Source: Nostoc sp. TH1S01 (GTDB lineage Bacteria; Cyanobacteriota; Cyanobacteriia; Cyanobacteriales; Nostocaceae). From it: a DNA stretch of 64,000 nucleotides. Shown in pieces: positions 17,741 through 64,000 of the stretch. A program made the translations under genes and the position numbers. The notes under the pieces are model-generated. The model worked only from the letters and a program-made list of their open reading frames with translations. It was not told the DNA's origin and made no database searches. Positions within the stretch are counted from its first letter, which is position 1. The number at the start of each line of letters is the position of its first letter. The stretch lies in contig JAGKSW010000035.1 of assembly GCA_018993265.1 (NCBI GenBank), positions 1 to 64,000 on the forward strand, written 5' to 3'.

Positions 17741-18086
17741 AGCAAATGTATATAAATTTAACTTTAAAAATAACTCAAAAAATATCAATTATTACAAAAC
17801 ATTTTCAGGATAAATTTGTACTGATATCCATCATTAAATACCCTTGACAATAGCAATATTCCCGTCTTATCATTCCTGGTGGAATGGAAATTAGTGCTAT
17901 CATTCATTCTCAAAATTAAACAGTACCCAACACAAAGCGACAAATAAATAAATTACTCTCATTTGTATTTTTTCGTGCTGGTATATATGCAGATGAGATT
18001 GAGTTAATATTTATTTGTCTAGAAATCGGTTTTCAATTCGATAATATTGGGGCTAACTTTGGACAAGATGCTACCTCCTCCTCGTT

Positions 18087-19925
18087 ATGCAAATCTGCCA
18101 AAATCCCAATTGTTCAAATCCATTCAATGCTGACGGCAATAGATTTTGCATAAGTTGCGGACAAAGCAGTTTTGGTAAACTGCTGAGAAACCGTTACCGC
18201 GTCATCAGACTCTTAGGCGAAGGCGGATTTAGCAAAACTTACGCAGCCGAAGATGCAGATAGACTAGATGCACCTTGTGTTATTAAACAGTTCTTTCCGC
18301 AAATTCAAGGAACTGGACAACGTACTAAAGCAGCGGAATTCTTCAAAGAAGAGGCATTTCGACTGTATGAATTAGGAGAAAATCATAGCCAAATTCCGAG
18401 ATTATTGGCTTACTTTGCTCAAGGTTCTAGTTTATATTTAGTCCAAGAATTTATCCAAGGTAGAACACTTTTAGAAGAAGTTAAAGATGAACCTTTTAAT
18501 GAAGAAAAAATCCGGCAAATATTAACTGATTTATTACCAGTATTAGAATTTATCCATTCTTGTAATTTTGTGCATCGAGATATCAAGCCAGAAAACATTA
18601 TTCGGCGTGATAACGATAGCAAATTAGTATTAATTGACTTTGGTGGTGCAAAACAAGTCACTCAAACCAGCATAGCCAGACAAGCAACAGTAATTTACAC
18701 AATGGGTTACGCGCCGAGTGAGCAGATGGCTGGTTTTGCTTGTCCTGCTAGTGATTTATATGCTTTGGGTGTGACTTGTGTGCGGTTGCTCACTCAATGT
18801 TTACCCATCCAAGATGTTTACGGACAGATTAAAGATCCCCTTTATGATGCCATGAACGGTCAGTGGTTATGGCAGGAATATTTACAAGCACAAGGTATTT
18901 CGATTAGCGAAGACTTAAGAAATATTTTAGATAAATTATTGCAACATTTAGCAAGTGATAGATATCAATCAGCAACGGAAGTTTTGAATGATTTGAAATC
19001 TGCTAAAACAGTTATTATTGAACCACCAGTAACTCAACCGACATTACTCAAATTACCCACAGAACCAAAAATAATTCGACCATTACCGCCATTACAAACC
19101 TGTGAATTTGATGTAGTCACAATAGACACAGGCGGTAGAGAAGTTAACCGCGATCGCGCTACAGCCGAGTTTTTTGTGGAAGAATTAAGTAAAGGCGTAA
19201 CCTTAGAGATGGTAGCCATTCCTGGCGGCACATATCTCATGGGTTCACCCAACTTTGAAGGCGATGCAGACGAACGTCCCCAACATCGAGTAGCGATCGC
19301 ACCCTTTTTTATGGGTAAATATCCCATAACCCAAGCACAGTGGCGTGCTGTCACCGCCTTACCCAAAGTCAAACAAACCTTAAATCCCTATCCTTCTAAA
19401 TTTAAAGGGATGAATCGTCCCGTAGAAAATGTTTCTTGGCACGAAGCTGTAGAATTTTGCGTCAGACTCTCGCAAAAAACTGGACGAGAATATCGCCTCC
19501 CCAGTGAAGCCGAATGGGAATATGCTTGTCGCGCCGGAACCACCACATCCTTTCACTTTGGCGAAAAAATCACCACAGAATTAGTCAACTACAGCGACAG
19601 CGATACCTACATCATGGAAACCAAAACCAGATATCGCAAAGAAACCACCGATGTCGGCAGTTTTCAAATAGCCAACGCCTTTGGATTGTACGATATGCAC
19701 GGGTTAGTTTGGGAATGGTGCGCTGACCCTTGGCACAACAATTACCAAAGCGCACCGACAGACGGAAGAGTTTGGGAAGATGGCGGCGATATCCATCGGC
19801 GAGTATTGCGTGGTGGTTCTTGGAACTTCGGTGCGGAACTGTGTCGCAGCGCCAGCCGCAGCTGGAATGAATCAGACGGCGGTTTAAGAATTTGCGGTTT
19901 TCGTGTCGTCTTTTCTGTGGGATAG
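18087..19925 (+). CDS. Serine/threonine protein kinase fused to an FGE-sulfatase (CLec-fold) domain
   Basis: 612 residues in three parts. A zinc-ribbon-like N-terminus carries CQNPNCSNPF and RFCISCG. A Hanks-type kinase (about 30-310) shows LLGEGGFSKTY, the ATP lysine in CVIKQFF, the catalytic loop VHRDIKPENII, and LIDFGGAKQV in place of canonical DFG-AK, as usual for cyanobacterial kinases. The C-terminal formylglycine-generating-enzyme/C-type-lectin-like domain (about 380-612) has MVAIPGGTYLMGSP, RLPSEAEWEYACRAGT, WEWCADPWHN and RGGSWNFG...GFRVVF. The C-terminal domain probably binds a ligand or protein rather than oxidising Cys. Its last 40 codons are not enriched for NNY codons, unlike the relative at 48774. 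Confidence 0.88.
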   Translation: MQICQNPNCSNPFNADGNRFCISCGQSSFGKLLRNRYRVIRLLGEGGFSKTYAAEDADRLDAPCVIKQFFPQIQGTGQRTKAAEFFKEEAFRLYELGENHSQIPRLLAYFAQGSSLYLVQEFIQGRTLLEEVKDEPFNEEKIRQILTDLLPVLEFIHSCNFVHRDIKPENIIRRDNDSKLVLIDFGGAKQVTQTSIARQATVIYTMGYAPSEQMAGFACPASDLYALGVTCVRLLTQCLPIQDVYGQIKDPLYDAMNGQWLWQEYLQAQGISISEDLRNILDKLLQHLASDRYQSATEVLNDLKSAKTVIIEPPVTQPTLLKLPTEPKIIRPLPPLQTCEFDVVTIDTGGREVNRDRATAEFFVEELSKGVTLEMVAIPGGTYLMGSPNFEGDADERPQHRVAIAPFFMGKYPITQAQWRAVTALPKVKQTLNPYPSKFKGMNRPVENVSWHEAVEFCVRLSQKTGREYRLPSEAEWEYACRAGTTTSFHFGEKITTELVNYSDSDTYIMETKTRYRKETTDVGSFQIANAFGLYDMHGLVWEWCADPWHNNYQSAPTDGRVWEDGGDIHRRVLRGGSWNFGAELCRSASRSWNESDGGLRICGFRVVFSVG

Positions 19926-47473: not shown

Positions 47474-47890
47474 ATGCCAACTAAAGATATATTTCATCAA
47501 GTCGTAAAATTAGCTTTACAAAAAGATGGTTGGACAATTACAGATGATCCCTTATCGTTGCAACTAGAAGATGATCAAGTATTTATAGATTTGGGTTCTG
47601 AACGTTTAATTGCTGCACAGCGAGACCAAGAAAAGATAGCTGTGGAAATCAAGAGTTTTCTTGCTCCTTCAAATTTATCTGAGTTTCATACCGCACTTGG
47701 TCAGTTTTTAAACTATCGTATTGTGCTGCGAGAAAAACAACCGGAACGTGTGCTTTATTTAGCGGTAAATTTAGACACTTATAATGATTTTTTTAGCCGC
47801 CAACTCCCCAAAATGAGTATTAAAGAATACCAATTAAAATTGATGATTTTTGACCCATTTCAGGAGGAAATAGTAGAATGGATAAAGTAG
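47474..47890 (+). CDS. xisH: XisH family protein
   Basis: 138 residues of the XisH family, named after the fdxN-element excision factors of Anabaena. The nuclease-like core is visible: VFIDLGSERLIAAQRDQEKIAVEIKSFL (D...ExK pattern) and EFHTALGQFLNYRIVL. Overlaps xisI by 13 bp. Although originally linked to fdxN element excision, xisHI pairs are scattered in cyanobacteria and behave like a two-component accessory module; no fdxN element is here. Confidence 0.92.
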   Translation: MPTKDIFHQVVKLALQKDGWTITDDPLSLQLEDDQVFIDLGSERLIAAQRDQEKIAVEIKSFLAPSNLSEFHTALGQFLNYRIVLREKQPERVLYLAVNLDTYNDFFSRQLPKMSIKEYQLKLMIFDPFQEEIVEWIK

Positions 47891-48213
47891 AGAAATATCA
47901 ACAAATTATCAAAGAAGTTCTTACCGAGTATAGTCAAATTAAGCCAGCTAATGGAGAAATTGAAGTAATTCCTATTTTTAATAGTGAAGCAAATATCTAT
48001 CAAATTATCCATTTAGGATGGGATAATCGTCACCGGATTTATGGCTGTACAGTTCATATTGATATTAAAGATGACAAAGTTTGGATTCAAAATGATAATA
48101 CTGAAGTGGGTATTGCGAATGAATTGGTAGATAGAGGTATACCAAAGCAAGATATTGTAATTGGATATCAAGCACCTTATTTGAGGCATTTTACAGATTA
48201 TGCTGTTGGTTAA
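47878..48213 (+). CDS. xisI: XisI family protein
   Basis: 111 residues. HLGWDNRHRIYGCTVHIDIKDDKVWIQNDNTE and ELVDRGIPKQDIVIGYQAPYLRHFTDYAV define the family. Pairs with XisH from the overlapping gene. A second xisI at 60334 shares the same motifs. Confidence 0.92.
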   Translation: MDKVEKYQQIIKEVLTEYSQIKPANGEIEVIPIFNSEANIYQIIHLGWDNRHRIYGCTVHIDIKDDKVWIQNDNTEVGIANELVDRGIPKQDIVIGYQAPYLRHFTDYAVG

Positions 48214-48376: not shown

Positions 48377-48781
48377 ATGGTAACTAAATCTAATATTCAG
48401 GTGACTGTTTCCCTGACGGAGTTGGGTTTGGATGATGAAGAGTTGCAAGCCCAAGTACAGAATTTGCTTCCCCAGTTGCGAGAGGTCGATGGCGTAGAGG
48501 ATGCAGATTTAGTTGCGGTTACGGATGTACCAGAAGGTTCTAAGGCTTTGGGTGGTTTTTTGTTGGGGTTTTTGAATGCAGAGGTTAACCCCAAAAACCT
48601 GAAAGCTTTGTTTGGGTTTCTGGGCGATCGCTTTGGCAACAAACCAATTAAAATTGTGGTGAAAGCGCCTGATGGTAGAGAACTCAACATAGAAGCCAGC
48701 AGCCGCGAAGAATTTAACTTTGCTTACCAAAAAGCCCAAGAATTTCTCAACAACTCCTCGTCAAACAGCAACAATGGCTAA
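48377..48781 (+). CDS. Small EACC1-like accessory protein
   Basis: 134 residues: VTVSLTELGLDDEELQAQVQNLLPQLREVDGVEDADLVAV, then GSKALGGFLLGFLNAEVNP, then KPIKIVVKAPDGRELNIEASSREEFNFAYQKAQEFL. This resembles the effector-associated constant component (EACC1) type of small proteins that accompany caspase-like or trypsin-like proteases in cyanobacterial and actinobacterial conflict systems (description from memory). Its stop overlaps the next start by 8 bp (ATGGCTAA), so translation is coupled to the caspase gene. Confidence 0.65.
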   Translation: MVTKSNIQVTVSLTELGLDDEELQAQVQNLLPQLREVDGVEDADLVAVTDVPEGSKALGGFLLGFLNAEVNPKNLKALFGFLGDRFGNKPIKIVVKAPDGRELNIEASSREEFNFAYQKAQEFLNNSSSNSNNG

Positions 48782-50897
48782 GGTAGCACTGCTAATTGGG
48801 ATTAGTGAATATCAGGAACCAACATTAGCACCGCTACCCAAGGCTGTGGAAGATGTGGAGGCGATGCGGCGTGTGTTAAAAAACCCGGAAATGGGGGGGT
48901 TTGATGATGTTAAAACATTGACTAATGCTCCACGCCAAGAAATGGCTGAGGCTATTGAGGAATTGTACGCCAAGTGTCAGAAAGATGATTTGGTACTTTT
49001 GTATTTTTCTGGGCATGGTGTAACCGTGGATAATGGTGAGTTTTACTTTTCCACTCGCATCACCCGTAAAGATGCAGGAAAATTGCGGACAGCTTCAGCT
49101 ATAGCCGCGAAAGATGTACATGGCTGGATGAACAGCAGCAAATCGAAGCGCAGGGTAGTAATTTTAGATTGCTGCTTTAGCGGTGCTTTTGCCAAAGGTT
49201 TGATAGCTAAAAATATTGGTACGATTGACCTACAACAGCAATTAGGCGGTGAAGGAACAGCAATTCTCACGGCTTCCACTTCTACACAATATGCTTTTGC
49301 ATCTGATGAATTAGACTTGTCGATTTACACTCAATATTTAGTAGAAGGCATAGAAAAAGGTGCAGCCGATAAAGATGGCGATGGTTTTATTGCGGTGGAT
49401 GAGTTGCATGACTACGCTAAAACCAAAGTCCAAGAAGCATCTCCCGCGATGACACCGGAGTTTTATCCTTTTAAAGATGGTTATCGGATTTTTCTGGCGA
49501 AGTCACCCAAGGATGATCCTAAGCTGAAGTATCGTAAGGAAGTAGAACAACGTGCCAAGTTAAATCAGGGTAAGCTTTCTGTTTTTGCACTGGAATTACT
49601 GGAATCTAAGCGGCTTGAGTGGCAATTATCAGATAATGAAGCTAGGGCAATCTTAGAAGAAGTATTGCAACCTTATCGAGAATATGAGCGGAAACGAGAG
49701 CGTTATGAACAGGCGTTAATTCGTGCAGTTAATGAAGAAAGATATCCGTTTAACGAGTTAATTCAAAAAGATTTACACGACTATCAGCAATATTTAGGAC
49801 TTAGGGATGAAGATATACAAGCAATTAAGCAGCTTATTTTAGCGCCAAAAGAAGCCGAATATCAGCGTCAGCAGGAAGAAATTGAAAGATTACTTCAAGA
49901 GCAACAAAGAGCCGAATATCAAAGGCAGGAAACTGAAAGGTTACGTCAGGAAGAACAAAGAAGGCGGGACGCTGAAAGGTTACGACAAGAACAACAAAAT
50001 ACAAAATCAACTCAAGGTATTCAAACTCGGACTTTTGAATTTAAAACAGCCACTATCACTGGTGTAAAGTCTGGGTTTTTGGGGATAGGAAAAAGTTGTG
50101 AAATTAGTCGCAGACGTGGAAGCGCCGAGTTTTTTACTGAAGACTTGGGTAATGGCGTAGTTTTAGAAATGGTGTCCATTCCTGGCGGTACATTCCTCAT
50201 GGGTTCGCCAGAGAGCGGGAAGGAACGACGCGACTCTGAAAGTCCGCAGCATAATGTCAATGTTCAACCCTTTTTTATGGGTAAGTTTCCCGTCACCCAA
50301 GGGCAGTGGCAAGCCGTTGCGGCTCTTGATAAAGTAAATATTGATTTAGATTCCGATCCATCCCGTTTTAAGGGTACTAACCGTCCTGTGGAGCGTGTTT
50401 CTTGGGATCATGCAGTTGAGTTTTGCGCTCGATTATCTAAAAAGACTGGTAAGATATATCGCTTACCCAGTGAGGCGGAATGGGAATATGCTTGTCGTGC
50501 GGGAACGACTACGCCGTTTTATTTTGGTGAAACGATTACGACAGAGTTGGCGAATTACAACGGAAATTATACTTACGGTTCTGCTCCCAAAGGTAAATAT
50601 CGGGAGCAGACAACCGATGTTGGGGAATTTCCTGCTAACCCCTTTGGTTTATTCGATATGTGTGGTAATGTATGGGAATGGTGTGAGGATGAGTGGCACG
50701 GAAATTATAATAATGCGCCGATTGATGGCAGTGCATGGGTGAATGAGAATAATAATCAATCTCGTCTGCTGCGCGGTGGTTCGTGGGACTCCTATCCGAG
50801 GTATTGCCGTTCGGCGAATCGCGGCGGGGATGGGCGTGACGGCAGGGGCAACCTCGTGGGTTTTCGGGTTGTGGTTGTGCGGGGCAGGGCTTCTTAG
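48774..50897 (+). CDS. Caspase-like protease fused to an FGE-sulfatase (CLec) domain, DGR-type target
   Basis: 707 residues from ATG 48774; the frame opens at 48720, but MAKVALLIGISEYQ is the family start. Peptidase C14 domain (1-240): His81 in LLYFSGHGV and Cys134 in VVILDCCFSG. A Glu/Arg/Gln-rich coiled coil (about 340-420) has imperfect ERLRQEEQRR repeats. The FGE-sulfatase domain (about 455-707) shows MVSIPGGTFLMGSPESG, RLPSEAEWEYACRAGT, WEWCEDEWHGNYN and LLRGGSW...GFRVVVV. Residues 672-694 look like the variable repeat of a diversity-generating retroelement (see findings). Likely a recognition module coupled to a protease, in a conflict or signalling setting. Confidence 0.85.
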   Translation: MAKVALLIGISEYQEPTLAPLPKAVEDVEAMRRVLKNPEMGGFDDVKTLTNAPRQEMAEAIEELYAKCQKDDLVLLYFSGHGVTVDNGEFYFSTRITRKDAGKLRTASAIAAKDVHGWMNSSKSKRRVVILDCCFSGAFAKGLIAKNIGTIDLQQQLGGEGTAILTASTSTQYAFASDELDLSIYTQYLVEGIEKGAADKDGDGFIAVDELHDYAKTKVQEASPAMTPEFYPFKDGYRIFLAKSPKDDPKLKYRKEVEQRAKLNQGKLSVFALELLESKRLEWQLSDNEARAILEEVLQPYREYERKRERYEQALIRAVNEERYPFNELIQKDLHDYQQYLGLRDEDIQAIKQLILAPKEAEYQRQQEEIERLLQEQQRAEYQRQETERLRQEEQRRRDAERLRQEQQNTKSTQGIQTRTFEFKTATITGVKSGFLGIGKSCEISRRRGSAEFFTEDLGNGVVLEMVSIPGGTFLMGSPESGKERRDSESPQHNVNVQPFFMGKFPVTQGQWQAVAALDKVNIDLDSDPSRFKGTNRPVERVSWDHAVEFCARLSKKTGKIYRLPSEAEWEYACRAGTTTPFYFGETITTELANYNGNYTYGSAPKGKYREQTTDVGEFPANPFGLFDMCGNVWEWCEDEWHGNYNNAPIDGSAWVNENNNQSRLLRGGSWDSYPRYCRSANRGGDGRDGRGNLVGFRVVVVRGRAS
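50780..50882 (+). other. Candidate DGR variable repeat (VR)
   Basis: From the Trp codon at 50784 to the GTT GTG run near 50880. Codons at 50787, 50790, 50793, 50802, 50817, 50823, 50829, 50838, 50841, 50847, 50850 and 50853 all end in C or T (GAC, TCC, TAT, TAT, AAT, GGC, GAT, GAC, GGC, GGC, AAC, CTC). That is what adenine mutagenesis of AAY Asn codons gives. The framework residues (CRSAN, GFRVV) match DGR targets. Confidence 0.7.
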
Positions 50898-50948: not shown

Positions 50949-50961
50949 CGCGCGAAGCGCG
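50949..50961. other. GC-rich hairpin downstream of the VR
   Basis: cgcgc / gcgcg (5-bp stem, GAA loop), about 67 bp after the VR end and 24 bp before the avd fragment. DGR targets often have a hairpin after the VR; this could be it, or a terminator, since seven T follow nearby (50967-50973). Confidence 0.4.
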
Positions 50962-50984: not shown

Positions 50985-51107
50985 ATGAGTGATTTACCTA
51001 TAATACAGAAAACCTACGACTTAATCAAGTGGTACGTGCCAAGCGTAATTTCTCTTCTAGTCGCGCCATTACCACTTGACTATCTAATACATCTCCATGT
51101 TCGATAG
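50985..51107 (+). pseudogene. Truncated avd-like gene (DGR accessory protein), 5' fragment
   Basis: ATG at 50985 opens 40 codons. The first 19 (MSDLPIIQKTYDLIKWYVP) match the N-terminus of Avd/four-helix-bundle proteins of cyanobacterial DGRs, which continue with an ILN-type segment and about 100 more residues. Here similarity stops abruptly at 51041 and TAG follows at 51105. The lost part coincides with entry into the opposite-strand ParD-like gene. In intact DGRs the order is target-VR, avd, template repeat, reverse transcriptase; only the first two remain. The match is from memory. Confidence 0.7.
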
Positions 51108-51285
51108 AAGCAAGTCCATCTGCTAGTTTTTGCTGAGTTTCTTCTTCCCATTCCTGATAACCCTTTTCCCATTCTTCCAGTAGTTTCAAGGCTTTAATAA
51201 TCACATCTTCAGCATTTTCATATCTACCTGTAGCAATTCTGTTTTGGATAAATTGCTCATATTCTGCTTTGAGTTGGATATTCAT
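51025..51285 (-). CDS. ParD-like antitoxin without ParE
   Basis: 86 residues: MNIQLKAEYEQFIQNRIATGRYENAEDVIIKALKLLEEWEKG matches the ParD/CopG-type ribbon-helix-helix antitoxin start; the C-terminus has EWEEETQQKLADGLASIEHGDVLDSQVVMARLEEKLRLART. A parE toxin normally follows within a few bases, but here the DNA runs directly into the avd fragment, overlapping it by about 17 bp. The toxin is therefore gone. The 3' end of this gene marks a recombination junction. Confidence 0.78.
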   Translation of the reverse strand: MNIQLKAEYEQFIQNRIATGRYENAEDVIIKALKLLEEWEKGYQEWEEETQQKLADGLASIEHGDVLDSQVVMARLEEKLRLARTT

Positions 51286-52129: not shown

Positions 52130-52248
52130 TCTTGTTAAGCAATCTCCTGTAGGTTGGGTGAAACGAAACCAAACCCAACAAATGATATCAGAAAAGCACC
52201 AGGCGAATTCCATTCACCAAGGCTACCATTTTAGGAGGTGCGATCGCA

Positions 52249-60682: not shown

Positions 60683-60845
60683 GTAGGTTGGGTGGAGGCG
60701 CACAAAAAGATATCAAAAGCAACACGATAAATCTAGATTGCGCCGTAATTCAACACCAATTGCAGCTTTAATTTTTGTAGTTGAGAAATTTTGCGGTTTC
60801 CGGCGTATCATTTGTTGGGTTACGCTATCGCTGCACCCAACCTAC
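60683..60845. repeat. MITE-like element with inverted ends, copy 1
   Basis: Left end gtaggttgggtg (60683-60694) and right end cacccaacctac (60834-60845), perfectly inverted over 12 bp, 163 bp long. The first 129 bp recur in the same orientation at 63873-64000, up to the window end. No coding capacity. Confidence 0.75.
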
Positions 60846-60875
60846 AGAAGAGGCGATCGTACTTATCTATAATTG

Positions 60876-63872: not shown

Positions 63873-64000
63873 GTAGGTTGGGTGGAGGCGCACAAAAGAT
63901 ATCAAAAGCCACACAATAAATCTAGATTGCGCCGTAACCCAACACAAATTGCAGCGTTAATTTTTGTAGTTGAGAAATTTTGCCTTTTTCGGCGTATCAT
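63873..64000. repeat. MITE-like element, copy 2 (cut by window end)
   Basis: Nearly identical to 60683-60811 with a single-base deletion and about ten substitutions, same orientation. The right end is outside the window. Confidence 0.8.

Follow-up and report, generated by a model that had tools for sequence, protein, structure and literature searches.

Does the short avd-like frame downstream of a variable repeat (VR) in Nostoc sp. TH1S01 record the loss of a diversity-generating retroelement (DGR), and can the adjoining target gene still be rewritten? A preliminary description of this DNA had proposed the scar of a lost DGR, with a target that is either frozen or diversified in trans. The window, i.e. 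the whole 64,000-nucleotide stretch that was analyzed (contig JAGKSW010000035.1, positions 1 to 64,000), very probably carries a DGR target gene that has lost its cassette by deletion. It was studied together with the rest of its genome (G000; a draft of 7.65 Mb in 247 contigs, completeness 100). The site of the window's target, locus A, was compared over 11 genomes of the genus, and a second target site, locus B, located on contig C53 in G000, was examined in six of these (G000, G001, G005, G006, G007, and G008).

Target gene and variable repeat

The target gene (48774..50897, plus strand) has an intact frame encoding an N-terminal caspase domain (Peptidase_C14, Pfam 4.9e-23) and a C-terminal FGE-sulfatase domain (Pfam 1.6e-58), which we take to have a C-type-lectin fold; ATG 48774 was chosen as its start, the list of open reading frames giving an upstream TTG. 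The product is an EACC1-associated caspase (NF047832, 171.8 bits against a cut-off of 140). The small gene upstream (48377..48781, plus strand) was named EACC1-like from a weak Pfam EACC1 match under the cut-off (E 0.088) and from its neighbor of the NCBIfam 'caspase, EACC1-associated type'. Also upstream of the target is a gene pair at 47474-48213, presumably XisH/XisI-like, and similar pairs were seen near target loci in several mapped genomes.

The VR (125 bases, 50763..50887, plus strand) was delimited by alignment to the template repeat (TR) of an intact cassette in Nostoc sp. CHAB 5844 (G010). Within the part counted, 15 of the 26 adenines differ, as against 3 of the 65 other sites (p 7.4e-8). 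The adenine-restricted VR-TR differences, the location of the VR at the 3' end of the target, and the FGE-sulfatase domain identify the gene as a DGR target, and the VR reported earlier upstream of avd is thus real.

Comparison of the window with 11 alleles gave a VR dS value for 10 of them. Against five TR1-type alleles (G000_B, G001_B, G006_B, G007_B, and G010_C), dS is 0.04-0.10 in the VR and 0.34-0.70 across the remainder of that domain (FGE), which suggests that the latest rewriting of the VR from a common template postdates the divergence of the remainder. Five other alleles, with other VR types or without a VR (G001_A, G005_A, G006_A, G008_A, and G009_A), gave VR values of 0.37-1.28, so this homogenization appears to be limited to the TR1 type.

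A GC hairpin with a 5 bp stem and a loop of 3 (50949..50961, plus strand) lies 61 bases past the VR and is followed by a T-run. The stem pairs perfectly in 12 of the 17 loci aligned, carries a single base change in 3 others, and is missing in 2; the fold of the region is unexceptional (z -1.53; 14 of 200 shuffles as good), and terminator-like sites arise in shuffles too (mean 0.9). According to the available part of the account of phage BPP-1, retrohoming depends on a hairpin situated immediately downstream of the VR, and the phage DGRs depicted there have it 4-34 bp from the VR (PMC3240598). Because of the 61-base distance and the T-run, it is equally possible that the hairpin in the window is a terminator or a putative retrohoming element.

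The truncated avd gene

The frame starting at ATG 50985 has 40 codons (50985-51107), and its N-terminal residues are MSDLPIIQKTYDLIKWYVP. The first 19 residues, described earlier as typical of Avd proteins, are identical (19/19) to the N-terminus of the 119-aa Avd of G010, which itself matches Pfam bAvd (4.3e-18) and NCBIfam DivGenRetAVD (6.6e-39). Identity to avd at the DNA level stops at 51042 and parD runs from 51043 onward, so that the break is clean and the avd stub (50985..51042, plus strand) comprises 19 codons and one base. The similarity had been said to end at 51041, inside the 3' end of an oppositely oriented ParD-like gene; the parD junction is as described, and the end lies one base later.

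A comparison with Avd families, suggested in the preliminary description for both the segment and the whole frame, gave a divided result. The 19-residue segment agrees with Avd by identity, whereas the 40-aa frame matches the NCBIfam model under its cut-off (E 0.0095) and no Pfam family at E<=0.1. The match covers positions 1-18 of a 104-position model, so the stub is not a full-length family member; despite the sub-cut-off score, its 19/19 identity to an intact Avd establishes homology with avd. One further copy of the 19-mer is present in G000 (C53:44107-44163, E 2.2e-8). The genome also encodes five proteins (L003-L007) matching PF05635, the 23S rRNA intervening-sequence family, which are unlinked here to DGRs; they were weighed as possible Avd proteins and set aside, as Pfam places the G010 Avd in PF22296.

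Reverse transcriptase and template repeat in the source genome

Neither a TR nor a reverse transcriptase (RT) follows the avd stub within the window, as had been noted before, and none was found in the draft genome. A profile search of G000 with PF00078 (RVT_1), which was positive in 3 of 14 control genomes, gave no match at E<=1e-3, and the RT of G010 as a query gave no candidate among the matches listed. BLASTN of the VR region against the whole of G000 returned two VR copies only, the seven other matches having E-values of 0.06-0.8; a distant type of TR could escape this search. In this draft assembly, G000 thus yields no RT and no TR for a functional cassette and an avd of 19 codons, and the locus has the properties of a degenerate or orphan DGR target, namely a VR-bearing gene, broken machinery in cis, and evidence of a former cassette.

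Since no RT was found in the genome, the VR would no longer be rewritable, and the variable surface of the caspase-linked domain would now be ordinary inherited sequence. The term 'frozen' proposed for the target fits the present genome in its 247-contig form, and the window target is probably frozen now, although an RT or TR might conceivably be hidden in a gap of the draft. It is quite improbable that another cassette somewhere in this genome continues to diversify the target in trans. The VR and hairpin are intact in the window, and trans activity has been argued for degenerate loci of Thiohalocapsa in the part of that study available (PMC10907252), but neither RT query found an enzyme and the VR-region search of G000 recovered only the two target copies.

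In the genus, RTs that align over 349 or more residues with 68% identity or more are present in 2 of the 11 genomes (G010 and G005), in neither case at locus A. The remaining RT matches listed have at most 33% identity, save one 80% fragment in G010; no RT of the >=68% type is among the matches listed for G006 and G008, both of which are single-contig assemblies.

Remnants of the cassette at locus A

Locus A retains different pieces of the cassette in different species. The avd stub has 19 codons in the window, 18 in G008 (same junction), 14 in G006, and about 6 in G005, and G009 has none. In G007, 76 avd codons are followed by a jump into the TR (TR positions 84-140, 96%); at this junction (L168 about 17950-18235, G007:C26), avd is cut at codon 76, and the 3' part of the TR follows directly. 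In G010, the N-terminus of the caspase is fused in frame to a 53-codon C-terminal piece of RT (81%); the fusion (L160 2550-4046, G010:C160) has 497 codons after Met, the RT piece replacing the FGE domain. The target is present up to the VR in G001, where the VR was not found; in G003 and G004, the flanks are there and the target was not found; and in G002, one flanking gene only lies within the stretch fetched. Comparison of avd matches with the RT matches listed showed avd and RT together at locus A in 0 of the 11 genomes.

The adenine signature of the VR and the avd, TR, and RT remnants in congeners demonstrate that locus A once held a complete cassette, and the interpretation of the window as the scar of a lost DGR stands. 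As the ends of the parE-keeping alleles, the window and G008, G007, and G010 all differ, we infer at least four breakages at this site. Of the missing parts, which the preliminary description advised seeking in relatives, pieces are kept by G007 and G010. The same description counted related genomes with an identical junction and no DGR as evidence against its reading; G008 literally is such a genome (RT matches of only 23% identity), but the reading is not refuted, because other parts of the cassette survive at locus A of G007 and G010.

There is little likelihood that the VR-to-avd-start segment spread as one piece (target plus avd fragment) and that no cassette ever existed at this locus. 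Both target copies in G000 do end inside avd, and cyanobacterial DGR targets are dispersed as paralogs according to the accessible part of one account (PMC7517822). However, dispersal is contradicted at locus A itself by the avd-TR piece of G007 and the RT piece of G010, and the stub lengths vary between species, which also speaks against a unit.

Deletion junction and parD

The junction between avd and parD (51042..51043) is identical in G008. In the window, parD (51025..51285, minus strand; ParD_antitoxin 6.4e-8) has no parE, and its last five codons (LARTT) and stop are drawn from antisense avd. At locus A of G005 and G009, parD has another end (RIARETQG), after which comes a 94-aa parE-like frame; the G005 frame matches ParE_toxin at 2.1e-16. 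The undeleted parD-parE pair of these two genomes indicates that the deletion in the window removed everything in avd past the stub, together with RT, TR, parE, and the final codons of parD. By this sequence comparison, the deletion took parE and the end of parD as well, beyond what was described earlier.

G000 and G008 are not sisters in the tree of the flanking integrase, though they share the avd-parD junction, and the VR-to-avd-start block of G008 belongs to a haplotype other than that of G000; the junction or its flank has therefore been moved by recombination. An argument for trans diversification from the common junction was dropped in view of this block movement and the non-sister integrase tree.

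Least probable of all is a role of the 40-codon frame as a selected small protein rather than debris: G008 retains an equal frame end with an in-frame 3-base deletion, but the latter half of that frame runs antisense to parD and so is constrained anyway, and avd stub lengths differ among species.

Intact and partial cassettes elsewhere

The intact cassette of G010 (G010:C138, L055) comprises the target with its VR, avd (119 aa), RT (352 aa), and TR in this order, and the cassette of G025 has the same order; the order VR target, avd, TR, RT given in the preliminary description has to be corrected. The G010 cassette resembles the window in target architecture, avd start, VR frame, and template lineage, and differs in being complete and in occupying another chromosomal site, with different flanks. 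Across 60 related genomes, the window's genome counted in, the avd start was found at 39 places, with a full-length RT adjoining at 22, a partial RT at 2, none among the matches listed at 13, and a contig end at 2. Broken DGR cassettes are common in these cyanobacteria.

A further DGR cassette (G005:C21, L167) has an open RT frame, a TR, two target copies, and an avd without its 5' part, and it may be inactive because of this loss. Compared with its TR, the VR of G006_A differs at 18/33 adenines and 2/58 other sites, and that of G005_B at 18/33 and 4/58. Capture of these two VRs by a second DGR, i.e. template switching by retrohoming, was dropped as the main reading: G006_A, G005_B, and G008_A have in common a variant avd start without one codon, so the whole VR-to-avd-start block seems to have been transferred, as expected from recombination. 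These patterns suggest that VR-to-avd-start blocks move between alleles. Neither template gives a good fit to the VRs of G005_A and G009_A (non-adenine differences 15/65 and 13/65 against TR1; 15/56 and 18/55 against TR2).

Locus B and possible diversification in trans

Locus B lies between leuB-pilD-like and DUF433-MFS-like genes and has a target and an avd stub without RT in 6/6 genomes examined; no RT or TR remnants were seen among the alleles examined. The stubs have 38 codons in G000 and G001 and the same end codon in G005; G007 retains about 20 codons, and G006 and G008 retain 8 each. In G000 and G001, avd breaks at the identical base into a dispersed repeat (MITE-like as a label only), for which G000 has 11 matches at E<=1e-5, query included. 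Since a fully supported branch separates G000 from G001 in the unrooted flanking-gene tree, this break predates the divergence of the two. In the G006/G008 form, the ends meet at a repeated TACAG; these alleles have a derived avd deletion in common, yet the locus-B flank tree does not place them as sisters. Copies of the dispersed repeat are also found in the window (52149-52198, 60767-60851, and 63959-64000), and the same repeat borders several locus-B avd breakpoints.

Alleles sharing a break nevertheless have VRs that differ mainly where the template has adenines: 12/28 against 4/96 other sites between G000_B and G001_B (flanks 92/729), and 13/28 against 6/97 between G006_B and G008_B (flanks 73/705). 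The contrast between adenines and other sites is missing in 2 of 20 allele pairs, G005_A-G005_B and G005_A-G006_A, and for a third, G005_A-G009_A, TR placement left no upstream part counted; all three are poorly aligned. Non-adenine divergence is lower in the VR than upstream at p<0.05 in 6 of 9 pairs. The FGE tree of 16 alleles is nearly unresolved, with 11 of 13 inner branches open, and exchange between loci could be the cause.

Adenine-biased VRs beyond an older avd break imply either that locus B was diversified in trans or that VRs were recombined in. The chances are about even that locus B kept being diversified in trans, e.g. by a cassette at locus A. The earlier suggestion of diversification in trans accords with the history of locus B, yet recombination could account for some or all of that history. 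The second target copy of G000 (L008 10254-12326, G000:C53) has an in-frame TAG and a one-base, frameshifting deletion inside its VR and is a decaying DGR target.

Proposed history and significance

The ancestral order at locus A would have been target-VR, avd, RT, TR, and then a convergent parE-parD pair. Before the loss, loci A and B were very probably written from one template lineage. A deletion from avd codon 20 through RT, TR, and parE into the last parD codons would then have given parD its new end, while the target, the VR, the hairpin beyond it, and the first 19 codons of avd were spared. A wider scheme, in which the targets outlive the mutagenesis engine, is an evenly balanced proposition: in this genus, one template lineage would have served two or more dispersed targets, including one that was reached in trans once its own avd had broken, before repeated loss of the engine froze the repertoire.

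One chromosomal site can here be followed through several species with differing remnants of one cassette. The frozen VRs and those of G010, the sole congener found with an intact cassette of this lineage, form a natural experiment, which makes it possible to ask whether a useful variant was fixed and the mutator then lost, or whether mere decay took place. Both fates are seen within one genome, the window copy being intact and the second copy having a VR stop and frameshift. If targets do outlive the engine, the common breakpoints would allow the fate of these putative hypervariable sensors after the death of the mutator to be measured.

Comparison with known systems

Our literature search found no account of avd stubs, which is weak evidence since subscription journals were mostly outside its coverage. 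A close cyanobacterial case is all3226 of Nostoc/Anabaena sp. PCC 7120, which, like the window's gene, is a paralog among DGR targets that shows residual TR-VR homology and has no RT close by; unlike the window's genome, PCC 7120 has two DGRs elsewhere, as far as the available part of its account goes (PMC7517822). No avd stub is described in that part, the strings 'avd' and 'truncat' occurring 0 times in the main text (PMC7517822).

For Thiohalocapsa PB-PSB1, the available part of the published study reports degenerate DGR loci, MITE-like replacement, and trans diversification, the case for the last resting on agreement with a remote TR at non-adenine sites (PMC10907252). As in the window and its relatives, targets miss RT or TR, and MITE-like repeats stand in place of parts; however, PB-PSB1 has one complete locus per DGR class, whereas none was found in the window's genome (PMC10907252). 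Published examples exist of both degenerate and trans-diversified DGR loci. The window is a new, well-documented case with an unusually clear comparative record, in which, unlike in the portion of the PB-PSB1 work available, the loss is tracked across congeneric genomes at one locus.
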